A DNA stretch of 64,000 nt. Origin: Mortierella sp. BCC40632 (taxonomy: Eukaryota; Mortierellomycota; Mortierellomycetes; Mortierellales; Mortierellaceae). This document shows positions 31,060 to 57,171 of this stretch, in pieces. The notes under the pieces were generated by a model, which did not search any database, was not told where the DNA came from, and saw nothing but the letters and a program-made list of their open reading frames with translations. The stretch is taken from contig WAEK01000020.1 of assembly GCA_011634665.1 (NCBI GenBank), positions 322,001-386,000 of the forward strand. Direction: 5' to 3'. The translations under genes and the position numbers were made by a program. Within the stretch, counting starts at the first letter, position 1. Each line of letters starts with the position of its first letter.

Positions 31060-31219
31060 CTATGAAACTGGAATCGATTGACGCGCCATCCCCTGGTAGT
31101 GTACCAAAGAGACGTCGTCCTCGTCATCTTCATCCTCACCACTAAGCGCGTCCTGTGGAGCAGACTGGATTGAGAGACTATTCAGGGTATCAGAGCGGGA
31201 CCCTATTACTTGGTGCTGG

Positions 31220-31260
<41 letters not shown>

Positions 31261-34200
31261 TTGTTGTTGTAGTTGTTGTAGCTGTTGTTGCTGTAGTAGG
31301 TATTGTTCTTGAAGACATTGGTCCTCATCCGAGTCTTCATAAGAGTGTGAGCGCTCAGGGCTCCTGTTGCCTCCTCTGATAGCCCCTTCTTCACCTCCTG
31401 CTGTAGTTATGTCAGCTTGTGGACCCCCAGTATGGTCATGGCTCTGCCTGCCATGTCCTGGATGCCCAGAGCTAGAATGCGGTTCGCCTGACTGGTGCAT
31501 AGGAGGCGTGCCGTGTCCAACGCCCTGGTTCATGTGGTATTTCTGCTGGATCTCATATTCGGGGGCTTTCACTATCCGCTCGGACGTCTTGGCGGGGCTA
31601 CGATTAGAGTTCTTCTTCTTTTGGCTCTTCCTCTTCTTTGTCTTCAGCTTGGATTTTGAGCCCTTCCCATCATCGTGCGACCCGGAACCTTCGCCAGATT
31701 GCTGGCCTTGTTGCTGTGCCTGCATTTCCTGTTGCTTCTGTAAATCGGCCTGTTGTTGAAGCTGCTGCTGCTGAATCACGCCCAGATACCAGAACATCAT
31801 GTTGGAAATCAGCACTTGCTCATGTAATGGTCGTCGGGGGTTGGCCAGCTTGACATGAGAGAGACGGTAAATAGCTCGCTCCACATGGATTGGGAACCGG
31901 TTGTAATTGCTGTATTTGGGCCTACTAGACACACTGGGTTTCCCTGCTGATCCTTCCGTCGTGGCTGTGTGAGTAGCCTCGGTGGTCGCTGATTGGGCTT
32001 TGGTAGTCGCTTTGCCGTTTCGCGAAAACAACAGCGAGAGGGTCGATTGCTTCTTGACCGTAGCATCAGTTGTTGAAGAAATCTGGGTATTATTGTCTGT
32101 TGTATGCGACGTCTGTTGCGTTTGAGCAGCAGCCTTAACTGGGTTTGGCCCATTGGCCGGCGTAGCGGCATTCGAAGGTTGCTCTGCCGGCTTCTCGCCA
32201 CCCTTTTCCTTTCCCCAAAGCCATGACCAAGTGGACGGCTTTTTAGAGTGTCCTGAGGAGCCTTGACTGGGGTGCTTGGGTTTGGTCGAATGCTGACCTG
32301 GATGTGAATTGGGTCTCGGTGCGCTGGATGATTGAGAGGCGGGTTGCTGCAAGAGGTTTTGAGTCAGTTTGACGGGGGGTGGGATGGGATAGCTTACAGA
32401 AAAGTTATCCGGCTTTTCTCTTCTATCGTTTTCTGGGCCCTCTGTCGTAAAGCGTGCCGTTAGGATGTTCTCTGGTGGAACGGAAGCGCCTTTCTTATGA
32501 TCGACAGCGCTCTCTGTCTCTTTCCTCTGTTGCTCCAGTAACTGGGGCTCAATATAGGTGGTGATGGTGGGTTTAGAAGCATCTCGGAGGGTTGATACAA
32601 ATCGCTTGACAGGCGCAGGCTCAGTTTCACTTTTACTCTTGATAGAATCGTCGGGTGTTGAAGGTGAAGGTGTTGGTATAAGAGGTGAAGGAGCAGAAGG
32701 CAGAGTTGAGGAAGTTGATGGTAGTGGCAAGGGGCCCGGATCCACAAGGGACACTGCTGTGTATTCTCCATCTGCGTTGACGGTCTGTCGAAGTCGTGAT
32801 ACATCTGTCTTTGTGTCGTTGGAGGCGGTAGAGTTTCGTCGGATCTTGGTGCGTGCACTTCGACGCAGCAAGGAGAGCCCTCCTCGTTCCAGGCCACCGT
32901 GTCTCTTTGCTACTATTAGATCCTCTTCGACTCCATCTGTAGGTTGAAGATCTCCTAAGGTCCAAGTAATAGATACCGAATCAAGGGCAATTAGCATCCA
33001 AAAAGAACTGAATTCAAAGAGAAAATGAATAGACCAGGCATGATTTTTTGCACCTACTATTGGAGGACTGGACTGAGAGACTGACACTTCGTCGAAGAGA
33101 AGTTCTTGTTTTCAGAGGTGGCTCGCCCATTTGCTCTAAAGGAACTGAAAACACTCCAGACAAAAAGTCTAGGTCACTCTCCTCCTCCTTGGTTGGCTCA
33201 GCAGGCTTTGGAGCGTCACTGGTCTGATCGTCGTGGTCGTCTTCTGGGTTGTACTGTGAGGACAAGACAGATTTTCGCCGTGTAATTGAAGAATTTCGCG
33301 AAGAGACGATCCCGCTGGTCTTGTTGGCATCGACGCCATGCCTCGTTAGCCATCTGTTGTACTCATTTGGGGCAATCTCTGGATGAAGATGGAACGGAAC
33401 CTGAAGGCGTGGTGTGGCCGTGGGTTAGCATCGGTCATGAGCGTGAAATAGAGATACCATTTGAATGGAACAGCCCATGTATGTCCTATGTGCACTTACC
33501 CAGAAGAGATGAGAGGGGTCCTTTGTTTCTATCTGTACTTCCTTCATGTCTTCCTGGGCCTCACTAGAATCGGGCAAGAGTGCCGACGATGACTCGACCT
33601 GAGCGTCCTGTGGTATCGCAGCATGGTCAGCAAGGAACATGCTTTGCCGCTTCGAGCTCGAGACCCTTCTGCTGAGGACGGTCGATGGATGTTCAGCGAA
33701 AAGAGAGTTGGTGTCGACCCCCAAGCCTCCGGTCTGATTGCTCGAAATGGTATTGAGGAATGGGGATCCAGGGGCAGTCGTTGTATGAGACGAACCCGTC
33801 GCATTTGTCAAACCAGAAGCAAATGTTTCGCGAGGCCCCTGGGAGAGGTCAGATCCCGATTGAAGCAAGTGCCCTGCTTCAGAGGTAGAGCTAGAGCCTG
33901 CAAGACTGGGAGCCGAGGCCGCAGGAGAGGTGGGGGAGGTTGTAGTATCGCTCCCGTTGCTAGTATCGTCGTCGTCGTCTAGAACATCGTTAGGACCAGG
34001 ATGCTAAGCGACAGGTAGAAAGGAAAAAAGGAGAGCGATTGTCAATGACAGAATACAAAAAAAAAAAAAAAAAAAAGGCGACTGTGTGTCCCCATGGGTG
34101 CTCTAAAGATGGACCACGAGATGTCCCCGCCCTTTTGAGGGGTGAAAGCATCAGCCTTGAAGCGGTCTAATTTCTTCAGAGTCTTTGGACGGCTGTCAAG

Positions 34201-40236: not shown

Positions 40237-41867
40237 TCAAGCAGCTTTAGGAACCTCTGATCTAAGCAAATTTCCTGGTCGGACCTGGGTATGATAATCA
40301 TAAGGCTTCGAAAGACCTGGTCCCGTGCCAACAGTAATCGCTTCATGACATTCCGGTCCACAAGTATTATGCCACTTTTGTTGACAGCTAGGGCACTGGA
40401 TAAACAAAGAATGGCACCGTGTATTGGCACAATTCGTAATGTTGTCATGAGGACTGTTGCACTGGTGACAGTGACTGATCACATCCTCCGTGATTCTTTC
40501 GCCTCTTCTACCGTCGAATGTAAAGTTCTTTCCGACAAAATGAGACTTGAGCTCTGGATTCTCTTTGATATAACGACCGTAACTTGTGATGCCGCCCTTC
40601 AACTATATGCATAATAAAGATCAAGGAATAGTGCGCAAAGTGAGCCTCCCTGCGGTCGTGGAAAAAAAAAAAAAAAAAAAAAAAAGGTATTACTTCCACA
40701 CGACTTACCATTTTGACATCTTTAAAGCCCTTCTGTCGTAGATAGCGCCCAGAGACGCTGCAGCGGATACCACCTGTACAGACCATTAGGACTTCCTTTT
40801 CCTTATCCCGCCCTTCCAAAAGCTCATCTAAAAGATCCATGTTTTGTTTAAACGTAGTGCAATCCATTTTGACCGCAGTCTTGAAAGTCCCGACTTCACT
40901 AATAGGAGTGAAAAGAAGTAAGAAAAGAGAGAGAGAGAGAGAGAGAGAGACGATTTAGAGTCGAGTATGCTCAATATATGGCGACGAAATGTCCAAATCG
41001 AAAGCGACCGTCTCTAAAAAAAAAGGCATAATCCTAGCAAAACTCGGATCAGATTTCATACTTTTCAAAATGATTCCTCATATCAACCAATAGAGCACTC
41101 TCTCCAACTTGATCCAAACGTTGATGGAATTCACTTGGTTCAAGATACTGAGGGATATCTGCATCCTCAATACTCCAAGTTCCATGTCGACCATCTGCCA
41201 CCAGTTGTTTCTTGACCGCTACCTTGAGTTTTCGAAACACTCTCTCTCCTGGCTTTTCACACGAAAAGTTCCAAATGGCTCCATCAGGTCCCTTCCCGAA
41301 TCGATCCATGACCAAAGTTTGAAGTATAGATTGCATCTTTTCAACATGTTGTACTGGTGCACAGAGATGTAGGTTGATACCATCCTTGGCCAAATAAATC
41401 CGTCCCGTAATCTCAAATGGAATCAATTGTAAAAAGATCTCGTCACGAAGATCCTCCAGTTGGTCCATAGGTAAAGGTATGACGGTGTAAAAAGTCAAGG
41501 TTTGATGGAGTTGACCTGGAGGTGGAGGGCCAGGAGGCACATACCGGATCGGAGGTCGAGAATAACCAGGTGAGGAATCGATTTCTTGAGCTTGTGAATG
41601 GTTCCAACAAACTCTATAGGAAAAAGATGTATTGGGCTTGAACACCACAGAAGGTAGACTTCCCAACAGTCGAGAGTTGTAAAATAGCCTATCCCCTTTT
41701 CCTAGTGAATTCGGATTTTTTGTTGTTCCTGAAGTAAACAGACGAATCAAGGCACTATTGGATCGAGAACCATGCATGGTCGTCTCCTTTGTAACACCAT
41801 TCCAAAGACTGCTACATCCATTCAGTCCCTTGAGTCCAAGTCTACAAAGTCGCTGAGAAGTCTGCAT
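40237..41867 (-). CDS. TrhO/TSTD2-type rhodanese, probable tRNA-U34 hydroxylation enzyme, organelle-targeted
   Basis: Bacterial TrhO (YceA) makes 5-hydroxyuridine at tRNA position 34; eukaryotic relatives are TSTD2-like. Exons 41867-41062, 40898-40709, 40602-40237; 453 aa. Seen: about 120-residue R/S/T-rich, weakly conserved N-terminus MQTSQRLCRLGLKGLNGCSS resembling a mitochondrial presequence; N-terminal acylphosphatase-like domain LTFYTVIPL...GRIYLAKDGINLHL; rhodanese domain with active loop VCTGGIRCSVSG (Cys309, Cys315); and C-terminal cysteine pairs CHQCNSP, CANTRC, CPSCQQKWHNTCGPEC that probably bind zinc. The first stretch of coding sequence is preceded by the second tRNA-Glu block within 140 bp. 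Introns of 163 and 106 nt; the second holds a T run on the coding strand. Confidence 0.87.
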
Positions 41868-42001
41868 GGTCAATGTTGCCGAAATGTCGGAAGACTAAAA
41901 AGAGATCTTTAGCTCGTTCGATCAGGAAGCCGAGAAGTAAATCGGCAAGAAGCGCTGTTGAGCAGTCAGATCCAAAAAAGTGGAAAAAGCAAAAAGGAAT
42001 G

Positions 42002-47678: not shown

Positions 47679-49467
47679 ATGGAAGCATTAAGAGCCACGG
47701 TCGAATCCTTTTCCATCAAGTCAGGGGAGTCATGGTCCTACAAGGAGCTTGTTCTGGCATTCATTTCCATCATCTTTATCTGGGAAGAATATCTCAGGTA
47801 GGGAATACAAAACACATGATGATCACTTCTCCAGGTTACGTTGCTGCATAGCCCAGCACCGGATGCTCGATCCTATCCCCCTAATACGCTCTATTTATGC
47901 CTGTGTTGGACACACAAAGGTTGCGCCATTACCGAAAACTCTGCTCCAAGGAGCGTCCCAAGGCATTGAGTGAGCACGTCCCCGAAAATGAGTTCCTGAA
48001 AGCCCAAGCATATGGCCGTGACAAGACCCGCTTTCAGTTTGTCAAGTCGGTCTTTGAGCAGTCTCAGACGACGTTTGGCCTGATTTATGACTTTTTGCCT
48101 TGGCTGTGGACGGCCTCAGGCGATGTCATGTTGAGATCCCTGGGCTATGGCAGCGAGTACGAGGTTCGTGTGCAACACTATTTGTGCAACTCCGCCCAGC
48201 TTCGCCTTTGGAAAAAAAGGCTTGAAACTCATCTCACATTTGGTCTTTTTGGTCTTTTTTTTTTTTTTGTCCAAAACCTAGATCACACAATCTATCATCT
48301 TTGTCACTGCATTTGTGTTTATCTCGACGGTGCTCTCTATCCCATGGAGCCTTTACGAAACCTTTGTTATTGAGGAGCGCCATGGGTTCAACAAGCAGAC
48401 TCTCGGACTCTTCGTCAGCGACACCATCAAGTCGCTTTTGGTTTCCGCGGTCATCGGTGTCCCTTTCCTTGCAGGTTTCCTCAAGATCATCCAAATCTCC
48501 GGGGATAACTTTTACTTTTACGTCTGGGTTTTCATGTAACGTTCTTGACTACCAGCCCTATTTGACAATGTTGGATTTGCAATTTTTATTGAGACGGTCC
48601 TATAGGCAGACGAATACTTCTTCTAATCTCCACTTTTTTTATTTGTTTGTGATGGTTCTATAGTGTTGGCTTTCAACTGTTGATGGTCTCGATCTTCCCA
48701 ACCTTCATTCAGCCTTTGTTCAACAAGTTTACAACACTCCCTGAGGGCGAACTTCGTTCCATGATCGAAAGCTTGGCCAGCCGAATTCAATTCCCCTTGA
48801 CCAAGCTCTATGTGATTGACGGAAGCAAGCGCTCCGGGCACTCGAATGCTTACTTTTACGGCTTTTTCAAGAACAAGAGAATTGTCTTGTATGATACTTT
48901 GTTGGAGCACTCTACTAATGACGAGACCTGCGCTGTTCTCGGTAAGCCAATGTTTCTTGAAATATCTAGGACCAGATTTCACGACTCGTAATTCTGATCA
49001 AATTCTCCATTGTATTTTGATCCGCAGCTCATGAACTTGGACATTGGGCCTATAGCCACACACTCAAGATGTTGATCAGAGCGCAAGTTGAGCTCTTTGC
49101 CATTTTCTACCTTTTCTCTCAGGTGATCCATAACAAGGGTATGTTTGCATCCTTTGGATTCACGGATGCAATGCCAACTTTGATCGGTTTCCTGCTTTTC
49201 CAGTATCTTTACGTGCCTGTTGAAAGCGTTATGGGTTTTGTCAAGAACATTATCAGCCGTCGGTATGAATTCCAAGCCGATGCCTTTGCTCGTGACTTGG
49301 GCTATGCCAGCTCACTTTCCTCAGGCTTGATTAAGCTCCAGCTTAGCAATTTGGGCACAATGAACCCGGATTGGCTCTACTCGATGTATCATCGTTCTCA
49401 CCCAGAGCTTGTTGAACGGCTGAATGCCATCAATGGTCCCTCCTCCAAGACTGTCAAGACGGAGTAG
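47679..49467 (+). CDS. STE24: CAAX prenyl protease 1 (Ste24/ZMPSTE24)
   Basis: ER membrane zinc metalloprotease that cleaves prenylated CAAX proteins and fungal a-factor-like pheromones. Exons 47679-47797, 47920-48163, 48282-48535, 48664-48941, 49028-49467; 444 aa (yeast about 453). The zinc site HELGHW (300-305) is split by the last intron (A|H); the third ligand lies in [15 protein letters not shown] at about 379. Several membrane helices ([48 protein letters not shown]) fit the seven-pass topology. Also [13 protein letters not shown], a family hallmark. Start supported by [10 protein letters not shown] followed by the first helix. Confidence 0.95.
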
Positions 49468-49579: not shown

Positions 49580-52500
49580 TCACTGCCGAAGTCGCTGAAA
49601 GAACTGCCATATCCAGCCCAGAAGATATACAAGACTGCCTAGGAACCTTCCGGATGCACCAATAGTGATCGTCCATACAACGATCGTCACATAGAGATTA
49701 GAGCCATCCTTCAAGACCAGGTAAGGAGCCACCTCGTCGGAAGAGATGGCAATCACCAGCGCACCATTGACGACAATCCACAAGACCAATATCCTGGTTC
49801 GGAATGATTGGTAGTAATCAGACTGCATTGTCTTGATGTCAACCTTTCTCGCTACCGCCTTGGCCTTTTTCGCAGGTGATCCCGATTGCTGAGCAGCCTC
49901 TGACCCTGGAGAGCCACCAAGCGACGAGGACGTTTGTCCGCCATTTGTATGGGTTGGAAGAAGAGAAGATGAAGACGAGCCAGAGGCAATCGATGTCCTT
50001 GGCTTCCGCTTGCGTTCGAGGTTGTCGATGGCCTCCTGATAGGCTGTGGAGACATATTGTTCGTCCGGCATTAGAACCGTGGATGCATGATAAATTGCCT
50101 CTCGCCCAATGAGTGGATCCTTATCATGATCTTCTGGTTCCTTGATTCCCCAGCTATGCGCCAATAACCAAAAAGTGTGTGTTAATTGAAGATTCTTGTC
50201 AGACTTGCTTGCAGCTGCCAGAAAATAGGAGGAAAGACTTACTTGACTTCATGCATATTACAGAATGCATAGACACCAAGAACACTGACATAACTTGGCA
50301 TAAGAAGTAGGAATTGTACAAAGCACGCAATCATATGCCACGGCTCGCCATACAATAGCGCCGAGAGCAAATAAACGGCCCAGCAACAGACAAGGGCCAA
50401 GATTAGGACATGGTACCCCGCAGCCTTGAACACTGCAACGACAGTAGAGAAAGAGTGCCAGTTGGCATAAGGTAGGAAATCGATCGCGTGGAGATAGGTC
50501 AAATATCCGGCCGCAAATAGGATGAACACTTGGATGCATGCGAAAAATATAAAACTCAGGATGAAAAGGTATAGCGAGTGGCTAAATTTCATAGAGAACA
50601 AACGATGGTTAGCAAAAGGCCTTCGACCTCCAGCATGCTTTCCTTGTAGCCAACAAGTCGACCTTACCCTCGGGGACGGTTGCCCATGGATATCATCATG
50701 ACGACGACAATTAAAAAGATATATGTATAGCGGGTCAACATGAAGGCGGTCTCACTAATGTGAACCTTTGTGGCTACAGCCAATGACTGAGCCATGTAAA
50801 AGAAGACCAGGTAGTAATTTCCCTAGGATGAAAAAAAGAATATGGTAGGGGAGAGTCAGCCTCAATGCCGGCTTTTTTTTTTTTTTTTTTATAGGAGGAT
50901 GAAAATGATCAACCAACTTACGATAGCCAAGAACCAAAACACCGTATCACACCCTAGGTAGATGATCTCGAGTGTTAACCACAGTTTCCGTAAGAGAGTA
51001 TGTCCACTTCTCCAGATGGCGGCAATATGCGAGACAGCATAGATCAATCCAAAGAACCGTCGGTTCTGCCATTTGCGTTTCATGCCCAGGAAACTTCCAA
51101 TATTGGCCGGCAACTCGGTCTCGGCCCAAGCTGATCGTACATATTGCATCGTGTTTTGTGCATTTCGTCGTGTGGTGACCAAAAACGGTAGGATTTGATC
51201 TTCTGCAAAATACGAGTATTCTAGCACTTCACCGATCTCTCGGTTGTCCTCGCTAAATACCAGGTAATCTGGTTCAAAATACATGGTCAGAGGCCCTTTT
51301 CCGGATATAGGCTCTGGCAAAAGAGCTTGATATCTGTAGGCGACCAGCGCTCCAGGCATGACAGAGATGTAACCAAAAATACTCTCAAAGGGCTTCTCAA
51401 GTACACTTGAGACTTTGTACTCAAAGATCTGAGCGGCGATGAGTGGGTTCAAGACTTTCCACCAGAGTAGACCCTTGGCGACCCGAATCTCACCACATGC
51501 TCCAGCAGTGTTGGGGTCTCGGTGAAAGGCGTCCCAAAGATGGTAGAGACTTCCTTTGCCAATCTTGGCTCCAGCAGTTGTCAATAAGGTGATGCGTGGT
51601 TGAAGGAGTGAACAAAGACCGTTGAAGAACCATCGATGAGAGTTGAGTTTCTTTGTATGTCGTTCCTTGAGACAAAAGATGATTTGGATAGGCGGAAAGT
51701 GGTGCTTGTTGTTATTTTTGATTGTTTGCCCCTTCAGTCGCAGCTTACTGTCCACAGATACTTGAGTTGAATACTATAATCCATTTCGTATCCAAAAAAA
51801 AAAAAAAAAAAAAAAAGTCCCATTAGTAACAATGCACTCTATGTATGTTTTGTTCTAAACTCTCAGGCCTTTTTTCTTCATTTTGTTGTGAGACTTACCT
51901 CAAAGATATGTGCCTCAACTGCTTTCCCGTTGACTTGGTTCTTGGCTACACCCTCTTGCCAACATCCCATGGATGCAAGCACCTTGAAGATCATTGGATC
52001 CAGATTCCGTCGACCGTCTGCGACAATACAAATTACAATCTTTTTCCATGAATCCTCGGATGACCACACTGGATTCTTGTGAAAACGAGATTTTGAGCCA
52101 GGATCACACATGTGCTTGATATCCTTGATGAGGGAATGTAATGTCAAACAAAACGCTTTTGGAGTTTCCTATTTAAAAAAAAAGTTGGGGTCGTTAGATA
52201 CACTGAAAGGCAGGATAGTTTACTAGGCGTTCCATGGGAAGAAAAAAAGGAAAGGGGAAGGACTTTGACGACAGTCCTGCCCTTTGACTCACCTGGTTGA
52301 CCGTAAGGCAAATAGCAATCTCAATGGGTCGATGCAACAACCGGGGCCTCAGCTTATAACGACCCTCAGGAACCATGTCTGCATCACAGGTCACGGCCAT
52401 GTATCGCATCGTCTCAAACTCCTGTCCTGTCTGGTAATCAACTGCCGAAAGATAACTGGTCGGCACGGGTGTATCCAGGACAAGATTTCCATCCGTCAGT

Positions 52501-53105
52501 TTGACTTTTTTGGGTTTGAACAGAAAATGAACTGGTGTGGGCATTTGCATCGCGGGTGGGAAAGAGAAGTTGTTTGCGATATGGGAACCAAGTCGGAGCC
52601 AGGGTGCCTGAAGCCATTGTGAGAGTGGATAATACATAGGTGGGCCCGCCTGAACTCTTCTACCACCATCTGCCATCGGGATAGGACTGCTGCTTCCGTT
52701 GTTCATAGGTGGGTAAAACTCTCCCGGTGCAAAAGGGGTCGCTGTCGAAGCCAACATGGGTGAAAGTGGTGGCGAGTAAGTGGCTGAAAACCTTTGATCA
52801 GAAGAACGATCAGCTCTTGCATAGGAATGTCGGTGGTCGCCTCTGCTGTTGTAGCTGTTACTGCTGTTTCTATTATGGTTCGTAACGGTTCCTGATGGAT
52901 GTTGCCCAGCCATCCTGCTTTTTTCTCTTCCGGGCGATAGATAACCTTCTTGGTAGGAACTCCTATCATGATCTCTTCCAGCTCGTCCTTGGTTGTGAGC
53001 ACCAGCTGCTGACGATCGCGGACTAGCATGGAAGAGTGTAGGCGAGGGCATTGCCGTTGGCAGTTCAATGGTTGGCACCCTTGGCAGTCCTGTCTTTCGA
53101 GGCAT
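49580..53105 (-). CDS. Chitin-synthase-like protein with substituted catalytic motifs
   Basis: Family 2 glycosyltransferase related to division-1 chitin synthases. Exons: 53105-52293, 52168-51899, 51773-50922, 50822-50668, 50581-50243, 50153-49580; exactly 1000 aa, phases close, no stops. A 150-residue disordered N-terminus is followed by the typical order: RYMAVTCDADMVPEG, IVICIVADGRRN, GVAKNQVNGKAVEAHIFEYS, LNSHRWFFNGL, LYHLWDAFHRDPNTAGACGE, then 6-7 membrane helices and a WGIKEPEDHDKD block corresponding to SWGTKGDD. But the usual LDVGT is LTTAGA (about 425-430), AEDR is AEDQ (551-554) and QRRRW is MKRKW. So the fold is kept while donor and catalytic residues are changed. Presumably plasma membrane; probably not a synthase by itself. 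Converges with STE24, 112 bases apart. Confidence 0.85.
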
Positions 53106-54322
53106 GATGGCGCCTTCTTACACGCGCAATGATCCTGCTCTCTAGCTTTGGGCGATCCAGTTTGGGAAAGTTGTACTAATAGAAGGCGAATAGCCAATAA
53201 ATCAAGAGAGTCTATTGACCATGGAGATAATAAGAGCAGCGGTAAGTCTGTTAGTTTTCTTTTCTTTTCTTTCTGCCCCTGTGCTCGGGTGTCGGTGTGA
53301 ATCCCCTGTAGTTTCTGATCTATCCAATGTGTTATCGACTGGTTGTTGGGCAGGTAGAAATAGCAAGTCGTGCTAAAGATCTGGTTTGGTAAACTCAAGT
53401 CAGGCAGTCGTGGATTCGAAGAGAGAAGAGTGCTGGTGGCAAATCTACAAGAGTGTCAGTCGCCCCAAAAAGCCTTATGCAACCAGGAAGCGATGTGCTT
53501 TTCGGAAAGAGTAAACGGTCGATCACTGCCGCTTTCCAGTACTCCAACAGATATTGAAAATCGAAATTCAGGCAAGATAGCAGACCTGGTTGTATCTGGC
53601 ATTAATTTCTAGTGTGATTTGGTGGTGTTGCCAAGGCTCCCTCCTCTGACTACTATGCTGAGATTATCGGATAGTATAGTCGTGGAAAGGGAGGTTTGTT
53701 GTCGCAGCAGTATGGATTTGTTCAAGGGACGGGTATATTGTGAAAGAGAGATTAAAGACTGAGGGAATAAAAGGTACGGCGAGAAACGGGAAAAGAGAAT
53801 GGTTGGGGAGAAGGACAAGAAGGAAAGAAGCAGTGGTTTGAACAAACGGACAGCGGCCGTTGTTGTTGACTCGGACTTGGCCCTCGCTCACTCGTCAACC
53901 ACGCCCTCGACCATCCTCAGATGAGAGGGATGGGGGATGAAAGGAGACATGAAAAGAAAGGGGCACTTCTTTGATAATATGACCCACGCTTAAAATACAG
54001 CCAGATGTGCCTGCTAGGCTTGGTGTGTCGGTTGGTACTCCGTGACAGCTATCCACAATAGCCTTGAACAGCTGCACAACACAGAAAAGGGGGGTCGCAT
54101 AGACCTGGCTCGATCTGCTGACAATGCATCGAACTTGTTGTGGACCAAACATGCCAATACGTGAGCACTCCTGTGCATGTGTGTCCCATCCGCAGCATGT
54201 TGGACTGTCATTTTCTTAAAGTGTGACACTATGCAATGAGAAGACTATCCAGCCCCTGGAGAGATTGTCTGGACACACAGGGCAGCCGAGCTTTTATAGA
54301 GAGAAGAGAGAGGGAGGGGGAA

Positions 54323-54369
<47 letters not shown>

Positions 54370-54677: not shown

Positions 54678-55808
54678 TTACACTTCTGGTTGGTTCGATG
54701 GTCCTGCTACCGACCTGAATGTCAACGACGATGGCTCTGCCGTGGGTGTTGCACTGTCCGGGGTCAAGATGTGTGGCGCCGTCCTAACCGATGCGGATGA
54801 TGATGACGGTGACGGCGGTGGTGGTAGAAAAGTTTGTATTGTTGGTAAGGGATGATGTCCTAGCTGGGTCTGAGAGAGAGCAGAGAAGGTGGCCGGCGGA
54901 AGCACCGAGAAAAGTGGAGGCAGGGTTGTGGTCTGGACGTGATTTTTCGTGTTTAGAATGGGGGATAGCGACGGTGGCGGGGTAGCGCCTACAGTGAATC
55001 CATGAAGAGTAGGTGGGCTCGAAGGTGAGTGAGGCGGGGACTGGAACGAGCCTTGACTCTGAGCGTCGGGGCTAGGCAAGGTCATTCCAAGACCGAGACT
55101 TTGATTGACCGGCTGACCCTGTGCACTTCCAAGAAGGTCAGAAACAAAAAAATGTTGAGTGGGAGAAGTCATCCGAGGAGAGGCCTCTGGAGAGGATTCA
55201 AAGGACGGTGGCAGGCTTCGGGTATCTGGTATAGTGAGGTCCATCATATTGTCAGCGCCATTGTCGTCGCTCTCGCCACTGCTGCATACACTCGGAGTCT
55301 CTGGTACTGAGAATCCTAGTGGCACAGTCGACAGAAGGGATGAAGTATCCATGGAGCTCGAAGATTTCGTTCGAAGATCCGATGACTGAGAGGCAACAAG
55401 ACTAGCGTGAGACCGGAGACGATGGATCTCGGCGATAGCATTTCGTAGCGTGGTGATGGAGTTGGACTTTACTGGAGGTCGCTTCCGTTCTCCATCAGAA
55501 GTTGGAGTGTTAGTGCTGTCAGGTGTACTGGGATTGCTCAAGTCCTGACCCGGCTCCGATGGAGTCTGCTGGTCCATCGTTGTCGCATCACCCCCAGATT
55601 CTTGGATGAGACACGCAAGCTCGTTCAGGAGCTGGTTCATAGTGTCACGTCGCTGGCGCTCGTCGAGAATGTGGGTAGTGCGGCGGCGCTCAAGGGCGGT
55701 AAGGCGAGCGATGGAGTCAATATTTTTTCGGTTGAGAACATTGACTCCATGGAGCCGGAAGACGTTCTTTGGGTTTGATGTAGGTCGGGTAGGACTCGAT
55801 GCTGTCAT
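54678..55808 (-). CDS. bHLH transcription factor
   Basis: Single-exon gene, 376 aa. Basic region and helix 1 are RRRTTHILDERQRRDTMNQL (41-60) with H46, E50, R53 and R54, the residues that contact CANNTG E-boxes, so DNA binding is expected. A long loop (about 71-114, with GGDATTMDQQTPSEPGQDL) separates helix 2, NSITTLRNAIAEIHRLRSH. The C-terminal two thirds are S/P/T-rich and disordered with an NMMDLTIPDT patch. Long loops are common in fungal SREBP/RTG-like and other zygomycete bHLH factors; the R-for-Y SREBP hallmark cannot be shown here (position after E-R is Q-R-R), so a SREBP call is not made. Targets unknown. Confidence 0.85.
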   Translation of the reverse strand: MTASSPTRPTSNPKNVFRLHGVNVLNRKNIDSIARLTALERRRTTHILDERQRRDTMNQLLNELACLIQESGGDATTMDQQTPSEPGQDLSNPSTPDSTNTPTSDGERKRPPVKSNSITTLRNAIAEIHRLRSHASLVASQSSDLRTKSSSSMDTSSLLSTVPLGFSVPETPSVCSSGESDDNGADNMMDLTIPDTRSLPPSFESSPEASPRMTSPTQHFFVSDLLGSAQGQPVNQSLGLGMTLPSPDAQSQGSFQSPPHSPSSPPTLHGFTVGATPPPSLSPILNTKNHVQTTTLPPLFSVLPPATFSALSQTQLGHHPLPTIQTFLPPPPSPSSSSASVRTAPHILTPDSATPTAEPSSLTFRSVAGPSNQPEV

Positions 55809-57171
55809 CGGAGCAAAGATCCACAGACTGTGCGGTGCCTGTTCCGAGTAGAGGAGAGAAGGGTGATGGAGAGAGAAGGAGAGAGGAAGAGGAAGAGAGA
55901 GAGAGAAGGGTGGAAGGAGAAGGTATAGCGGTTGGGACTTGAGACGGTACTCAGCCGAGGGATATGTGTGTTTGGACGAGGAGGAGAGTCAAGGAGAAAG
56001 TGAAGATGGGTGGATGGGAGGGGGGGGGAGAGCAGGGGTGAGGGGCGAGAGATGAAGGGTGAGAGACGTGGGGAGAGGAGAGGAAGCGTGAGAAAGAGCG
56101 GAGAGGAGAATGCAAATGTACAGGGCGGATGGACGATACCCGTGGACAGAAAGGGAAAAGAATCCGCTCGTGTGCTAACACGGGTTCATGTGGAGAGAGC
56201 GGGGAAAGATTGGCGCAGAGAGAGAAGAGAAAAGGGAACAGAGAAGAGAGGCGATAATGCATGTCGCTCGCCGTGGACAAAGGAGAGCGGACAAGAGCAC
56301 ACGAGATCAGGGCGTGGATTATCGACAGCCAGTCGTCAGCTCTGATAACTCGTCCGTGGTTGCACACACCCACGGCTCAGAGACGCAGATGTGGCAGATA
56401 ATGCGCCTTCCTTCCCTCCTCAGGCGACGCCCATGGAAACAGGGAAACAGCGCAGACCATTTTCACGTACAGGCACATCCTTTTTTGTTTGTACATGGGC
56501 AGGGTTTTTTTTGTTGCCCTGATTCATCCCAGCACTTTCTGGCTTGTTTTGCAAGCCGAGGCTACATTGCAGATCAGGAACAACAACCGATATTGTTTTT
56601 GTGTCTTCATTTCTAATGTCTAATGATGGGTGAGAATAGCCCACTCTAGCTCCCTGAACCAACAAAACAGCATGCCGCATTACTGTTGCTGCCGCTCTTG
56701 CCCTTTTCAATGTGAGATCTCGGTTAGATACTTCTTTACTCCGTGCAAGATTTAAATCCCGTTCTCATCTCATTCTAGGTGTATCCGTGGACGCTTTTGG
56801 TGGCATTCCTGGATTTTTGATTTTTCGGCCCAGAATGCCTTATGAGGTAGGAGCAGAGACGGAGTTGAGCCCAGTTTACTAGCTCTGTTAGAGAACAAAT
56901 CCAGAGTGAGGAAAGAGAGAGCAGGCGAGAGAGAGAGAGAGAGAGAAAGGGGAAGAGAGAGAGAGAGAGAGCAAAAGAGAGAGAAAAAAGGCAAAAGGTG
57001 GCGGAGAATCCTTCGCTTGACTGGCTTTAATGACAACTCCTCATTTTTCACAAGATATTTTTCCCCAGTGTCCACCACTAGGTGAGGCCTTTAAATCCCT
57101 CAGTACGGTTGGCTGATCGAGTGCCAAAGATGAGAGCTTACTGTGGTTTTTTCTTTTTTTCCTGCTGGTAC
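55809..57171. other. Intergenic, purine-rich
   Basis: Promoter side of the bHLH gene; GA-rich 55850-55930, 56030-56240 and 56925-57000 tracts. No supported gene. Confidence 0.5.

Follow-up and report, generated by a model that had tools for sequence, protein, structure and literature searches.

A conserved, probably non-catalytic chitin-synthase branch with altered donor-site residues in Mortierellaceae

The locus described here raises the question of what a full-length chitin-synthase (CHS) gene might do when residues required for catalysis in its active relatives are replaced, and whether such a gene is maintained or merely decaying. The gene occupies positions 53105–49580 of the minus strand in the window, i.e., the whole 64,000-nucleotide stretch of Mortierella sp. 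BCC40632 DNA that was analysed, taken from contig C20 of a 49.9-Mb assembly of 62 contigs. A first-pass annotation of the DNA had described an intact frame of 1000 amino acids in six exons with division-1 architecture, and both descriptions hold: the frame is free of stops, all five introns are of the GT-AG type, and splice-aware alignment to the orthologue P0005 returned the identical five introns. A gene-model artefact was ruled out, the junctions being reproduced by the spliced alignment and the sequence being common to database orthologues. Three Pfam domains, all above cut-off, follow one another in the expected order, i.e., Chitin_synth_1N (residues 199–262), Chitin_synth_1 (271–444) and Chitin_synth_2 (423–605), which identifies the protein as a division-1 CHS by descent. 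Each of its six sequence matches in the PDB is named a chitin synthase.

The exons are all on the minus strand. Exon 1 (codons 1–271; 52293–53105) contains the N-terminal region with an orthogroup-specific motif and the Chitin_synth_1N domain, and exon 2 (codons 272–361; 51899–52168) begins the GT-A part, where the DGR motif is kept. The donor, acceptor and base motifs are located in exon 3 (codons 362–645; 50922–51773), with which the membrane domain begins; exons 4 (50668–50822) and 5 (50243–50581) continue the membrane part, and exon 6 with the stop codon (49580–50153) carries WGIKE, the swap-loop region and the last membrane helices, as seen in models of orthologues. An AlphaFold2 model of P0005 (pTM 0.80) displays the CHS fold, with a GT-A domain, interface helices and C-terminal membrane helices, and a structure search with the orthologue model returned chitin synthases in the first 20 Foldseek rows and the first 18 VIA-align rows.

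The surroundings of the gene can be described briefly. A convergent neighbour at 49021–49467 on the plus strand is an exon with an M48 metallopeptidase domain (PF01435), presumably of the Ste24/CAAX protease type; its end and the 3' end of the CHS gene lie about 110 bases apart. Upstream, at 54678–55988 (minus strand), an open frame of 436 aa encodes a DNA-binding domain of the helix-loop-helix type, and an (AG)n repeat of about 35 copies (54298–54366) lies between the two genes; AG and poly-A/T tracts are abundant across the window. Further open frames on the minus strand encode a Zds_C domain (31060–33111, 683 aa) and a UPF0176_N domain (41049–41894).

Motif states were counted in an alignment of 19 orthogroup sequences, i.e., the window protein and 18 database proteins, with 155 others (148 database proteins and seven paralogues from the same genome). 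The decisive position is the donor/metal Asp of LDVGT, whose equivalent is TTAGA (residues 426–430; 51567–51581, minus strand, as are all motif positions below). Here the first-pass annotation was right that the Asp is lost, and only its notation, five letters set against six, needs correction to LLDVGT replaced by LTTAGA (425–430). No gaps occur at the motifs in the alignment, and no Asp takes up the position; this rules out that canonical residues are merely out of register, the outcome that the annotation had named as a refutation. The Asp position holds Thr in 17 and Val in two orthogroup sequences and Asp in 155/155 others. The EDR motif reads EDQ (552–554; 51195–51203; AEDR to AEDQ over 551–554), with Gln in 19/19 orthogroup sequences and Arg in all 155 others, and the QRRRW motif reads MKRKW (592–596; 51069–51083), its first and third Arg being Lys in 19/19 and Arg in 155/155, and its Gln being Met (16), Leu (1) or Lys (2) in the orthogroup and Gln in 155/155. 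All three motifs singled out by the annotation are thus altered, however, AEDQ keeps the Glu and the catalytic general-base Asp, and MKRKW keeps the Trp and basic residues.

Four further changes had not been listed. The TMYNE equivalent is TVNQE (268–272; 52166–52304, split by intron 1), in which the Glu is kept; its Tyr position holds Asn in 15 and Cys in two orthogroup sequences, with two gaps (others: 152 Tyr, three gaps), and its Asn position holds Glu (14), Lys (2) or Gln (1), with two gaps (others: 151 Asn, one Ser, three gaps). At the position of Glu752 in S. cerevisiae Chs1 (ScChs1), residue 588 here, Glu is changed to Ser; the orthogroup has 12 Ser and seven Thr, the others 153 Glu and two Asp. 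QNFEY reads QIFEY, and WGTKG reads WGIKE. Against this stands a set of residues kept in 19/19 sequences: the DGR Asp (D322), E479 and Y480 of QXXEY, P501 of the VLPGA gate, E552, D553 and W596. The gate Gly is Ser in six of the 19. The replacements are themselves constrained, with T427, A428, Q554, K593 and K595 fixed in all 17 sequences from outside Actinomortierella; the Actinomortierella members have Val at 427 and Lys at 271. Judged by what distinguishes active synthases, the window protein lacks the donor/metal Asp, TMYNE and QRRRW, and of EDR it retains E and D with R changed to Q.

Two regions outside the catalytic motifs set the orthogroup apart. An N-terminal motif, YYPLSQWLQAPWLR in the window protein (residues 158–171; 52593–52634), conforms to Y[FY]PLS[QH]WLQAPWLR and is present in 12/19 orthogroup sequences and 0/155 others, the remaining seven orthogroup models beginning within or after it. 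The swap-loop region, WGIKE...NL (residues 811–853; 50024–50152), is rewritten relative to active synthases and conserved within the orthogroup. In the predicted model of P0002 the N-terminal motif has low confidence, and a strand and a helix of the swap loop have moderate confidence.

The orthogroup is well delimited. A search of about 5.8 billion proteins gave 17 matches at 61–90% identity, the next following at about 41% (best 120 of 1246), and a profile search added one member, from Gamsiella, with all 18 members at or above 1165 bits and the next match at 717 (best 120 of 1030). A search with exon 3 (best 120 of 279) brought in five additional pieces carrying EDQ and KRKW, i.e., P0167–P0170 and P0251 (Actinomortierella wolfii), two of which also span the DVGT position and have Thr there. 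The first-pass annotation had asked whether orthologues extend beyond a single strain; among the matches listed they come from nine named genera, Mortierella, Haplosporangium, Dissophora, Podila, Gryganskiella, Lobosporangium, Lunasporangiospora, Actinomortierella and Gamsiella, with the same replacements, and all nine are classed in Mortierellaceae. No protein named from Linnemannia, M. alpina, Entomortierella or Benniella occurs among the 18 representatives, though chitin synthases of these taxa are listed (best 120 of 1030), and the gap may reflect true absence or members hidden inside 90% clusters. In 13 of the 18 database proteins, 751 or more of the 797 core residues are present, the missing ones lying mostly in a variable linker. 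Five models are incomplete (P0012, P0013, P0015, P0017 and P0121); P0008, P0015, P0017 and P0121 have a break or gap from residue 698, which is the exon 4/5 junction of the window gene, so that faults of gene modelling are likely. For P0001, whose source is labelled lgn, the longest contig measures 3036 bases against 897 codons; since the window introns total 523 bases, a gene with introns of that length would exceed the contig, and P0001 is probably a spliced transcript, which would hint at expression of the orthogroup.

Eight division-1 loci, a lower bound, were found in the genome, and of these the window gene alone deviates. The other seven (L009–L015) all have TMYNE, DGR, DVGT, QNFEY, VLPGA, EDR, QRRRW and WGTKG in models of the conserved part; as the aligner penalises stops heavily, the lack of stops in these models is in part a product of the method, and L012 and L013 seem to have faulty 5' ends. 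Division-2 loci are also present, and a weak division-2-like locus on contig C4 (1134932–1136647), scoring 124 and 85 bits within a frame of 1406 aa, may represent an unusual class. In the exon-3 search, 27 of the 120 best of 279 sequences were flagged for odd motifs, five of them being the orthogroup pieces; the other 22 were rejected as members, nearly all keeping DVGT and EDR and departing only at or after QRRRW, which was taken to mark exon ends. Among the 22, P0197 reads EDH and P0274 looks misaligned. A Linnemannia schmuckeri fragment, P0194, has AKDR for AEDR with DVGT and QRRRW intact; it is a single cluster and could be an error.

Is the gene maintained? Over core columns, orthologues from seven species are 0.812–0.866 identical to the window protein (mean 0.839), and active paralogues of the same species are 0.838–0.886 identical to their closest copy in the window genome (mean 0.850, ten comparisons). 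Five direct species pairs gave orthogroup and active identities of 0.835/0.856, 0.880/0.879, 0.840/0.843, 0.858/0.852 and 0.858/0.838; the largest shortfall is in Podila humilis (0.812 vs 0.886), the orthogroup model of which has an internal gap. The divergence is thus nearly as slow as that of active paralogues in the same species, and decay is unlikely. The expectation that decay would have introduced stops was confirmed by neutral simulation, in which 0.1 substitutions per site introduced 11.8 stops on average and left 0/500 copies open. The motif loss is common to orthologues across species, whose frames stay open, a trait of pseudoenzymes. In trees of 55 and 39 rows, which took 47 and 31 of 166 database proteins, the orthogroup forms one clade (SH-aLRT 100; 100/100) on a stem of about 2.7–3.0 changes per column; its crown is short, with the exception of Actinomortierella, whose orthogroup branch measures 0.38 vs 0.16 for an active synthase of that genus. 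The drawn root is a midpoint, and the very long stem may meet another long branch, that of P0050, which the 39-row tree omits. A single episode of rapid change, after which constraint returned, would account for this shape, and the comparison of protein rates suggests that purifying selection maintains the orthogroup as a putative pseudo-synthase.

The changes are concentrated, to a degree, in the donor site. Of 176 columns that are at least 98% conserved in other chitin synthases, 124 are unchanged in the orthogroup, 27 carry a new, fixed residue and 25 vary. With donor and acceptor positions picked by us from residues and motifs in the published papers, 12/20 donor-site, 4/17 acceptor or base and 36/139 other columns are altered (donor vs elsewhere, Fisher p 0.003). 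ScChs1 R718, which corresponds to residue 554, is grouped with the acceptor site in PMC10409773; when R554 is moved accordingly, 11/19 donor and 5/18 acceptor columns are altered (p 0.007), and when QRRR is moved as well, 8/15 and 8/22 (p 0.035). The direct contrast of donor with acceptor gave p values of 0.045, 0.10 and 0.34 under the three assignments, and fails under two. Loss at the donor site therefore exceeds the background in these alignments, and a clean split between donor and acceptor is unsupported.

Regional identities were compared with those of three active Mortierellaceae orthogroups after removal of the Actinomortierella rows P0014 and P0016, which were likewise left out of the per-position listing of changes; the sets are not matched by species, as P0047, from Actinomortierella, stayed in the L014-type set used for comparison. 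Identity within the orthogroup is lower in GT-A (0.86 vs 0.905–0.942) and from EDR to IF2 (0.865 vs 0.929–0.958), similar to that of active groups in TM1–4 (0.825 vs 0.764–0.825) and TM5–6 (0.832 vs 0.729–0.873), and high in IF3 (0.955 vs 0.891–0.949) and the swap loop (0.842 vs 0.712–0.849).

What the changes imply for catalysis can be gauged from published mutants of two active enzymes. In P. sojae Chs1 (PsChs1), mutation of Asp291 (DGR) and Asp382 (DVGT) completely abolishes activity, Asp496 of EDR serves as the general base, and the channel motif is naturally QRKRW (PMC9556331). In ScChs1, D602A at the Asp of DVGT, N456A/E457A, E752R and R718L do not rescue a chs1 deletion, and Q756L and R759A have moderate effects (PMC10409773). 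Judged by these mutants, the decisive loss would be that of the donor/metal Asp, followed by those in TMYNE, the EDR Arg and the E752 position; the change in QRRRW by itself would not show inactivity. By analogy with these published mutants of other synthases, the orthogroup protein probably lacks chitin-synthase activity. The general-base Asp is kept, so that an altered or metal-independent enzyme is conceivable.

The interpretation that we favour, at close to an even chance, is a maintained pseudo-synthase that has lost donor-binding residues and serves, most likely, as a non-catalytic dimer partner that tunes active chitin synthases. The gene makes a full-length, membrane-embedded division-1 homologue that lacks key residues for binding UDP-GlcNAc and metal; its predicted GT-A fold, channel helices and swap-loop region are kept, as are most of the residues of the acceptor site and gate. 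The protein would pair with an active synthase, or with itself, via membrane helices and swap loop, and the pairing would set the activity, placement or fibre geometry of the partner. In ScChs1 the swap loop contacts the GT domain of the other subunit and is proposed to restrain it, and its deletion raises activity more than about tenfold and yields a much smaller particle (PMC10409773). A homologue probably unable to use the donor, with membrane helices and a rewritten, conserved swap loop, would be suited to act as partner or regulator. Several observations speak against this role: a pure scaffold has no need of the new residues at which much of the altered pocket is fixed, and the Asp of DGR, the Trp and the gate Pro are all retained along with the general base. 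The long Actinomortierella branch and the lack of a firm difference between donor and acceptor sites also count against it. Furthermore, the swap loop is only 0.15–0.30 identical to those of the genome's active synthases, so that mixed dimers may be disfavoured, and regional identities to the seven own paralogues single out no preferred partner. More tentatively, and with distinctly less confidence, the protein may be a silent subunit dedicated to Mortierellaceae that forms mixed dimers with active division-1 synthases, in which the rewritten swap loop and the new N-terminal motif control activity or the pairing of chitin chains.

The best rival to a non-catalytic partner is an enzyme with a changed donor or without need of metal, which would use another nucleotide sugar or hydrolyse UDP-GlcNAc by means of the retained Asp base. 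It owes this rank to the base and several pocket residues (E552, D553, D322, W596, E479, Y480 and P501) being invariant and to the new pocket residues T427, A428, Q554, K593 and K595 being conserved outside Actinomortierella. We consider it unlikely, however, given that the metal-side Asp and the Tyr and Asn of TMYNE are lost with no nearby substitute, that donor-site columns are changed more often than the background, and that the pocket varies within the orthogroup, with Val427 and Lys271 in Actinomortierella and Ser for the gate Gly in 6/19. A third reading, in which the protein senses chitin chains, lipid or cell wall, or acts in trafficking, by means of its channel or N-terminal motif and does not pair with active synthases, agrees with acceptor and base columns kept at 13/17 positions and with the motif exclusive to the orthogroup; that motif is not confidently folded in the model, and we regard this role as improbable. 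Marginally less probable still is a weak or conditional synthase with activity reduced rather than removed: the catalytic Asp is kept, QRRRW-type changes alone are moderate in ScChs1 (Q756L, R759A) and PsChs1 naturally has QRKRW, but in these enzymes (PMC10409773, PMC9556331) mutation of the same donor Asp abolished PsChs1 activity and blocked ScChs1 complementation, and its loss here is combined with changes in TMYNE, at the E752 position and in EDR. A decaying pseudogene that happens to be open would account for the lost motifs and the five incomplete models, and is hardly credible given the same replacements in many species, a divergence near that of active paralogues, neutral copies that never stayed open in simulation, and breaks from residue 698 that point to faults in gene models.

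We describe the orthogroup, from sequence, as a conserved and probably non-catalytic branch of the chitin synthases, to which it belongs by descent and fold while departing from the sequence traits of active members. A survey of the family describes EDRXL and QRRRW as well conserved in all CHS classes (PMC4734345); the orthogroup departs from both and has lost the donor Asp, and still its rate of change is only slightly above that of active synthases. Among open-access articles in PMC we found no account of this orthogroup or of a conserved CHS pseudoenzyme. A naturally donor-impaired homologue would make non-catalytic CHS subunits, mixed CHS dimers and swap-loop function testable; moreover, chitin synthase is an antifungal target, and the donor pocket occupied by nikkomycin is the part altered here.

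Compared with the division-1 fungal enzymes S. cerevisiae Chs1 and C. albicans Chs2 (PDB 8k3r, 7stn), the orthogroup differs at the donor/metal Asp, in TMYNE and QRRRW, at the Arg of EDR and at the Glu of the E752 position; its swap loop is rewritten, and its N-terminal motif is new. It shares its fold with PsChs1 (PDB 7wjm; 29% identity in structural alignment), which likewise departs from QRRRW; unlike the orthogroup, PsChs1 has TMYNE, DVGT and EDR and is active (PMC9556331). An atypical class, recCHS, is reported from one Mortierella species among others and possibly has an accelerated past; it is described (PMC5122149) with a duplicated QXXXY and a hyaluronan-synthase-like N-terminal part, whereas the N-terminal domains of the orthogroup are those of division 1 and its named members, among the matches listed, all belong to Mortierellaceae. 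The window protein, set against recCHS by description, has a Chitin_synth_1N domain and one aligned QIFEY. In plants, GAUT7 is a non-catalytic partner of the glycosyltransferase GAUT1, an inactive homologue that anchors or tunes an active one. The likeness to this pair is one of function, the enzyme family being different and the interaction of the orthogroup protein being our proposal.
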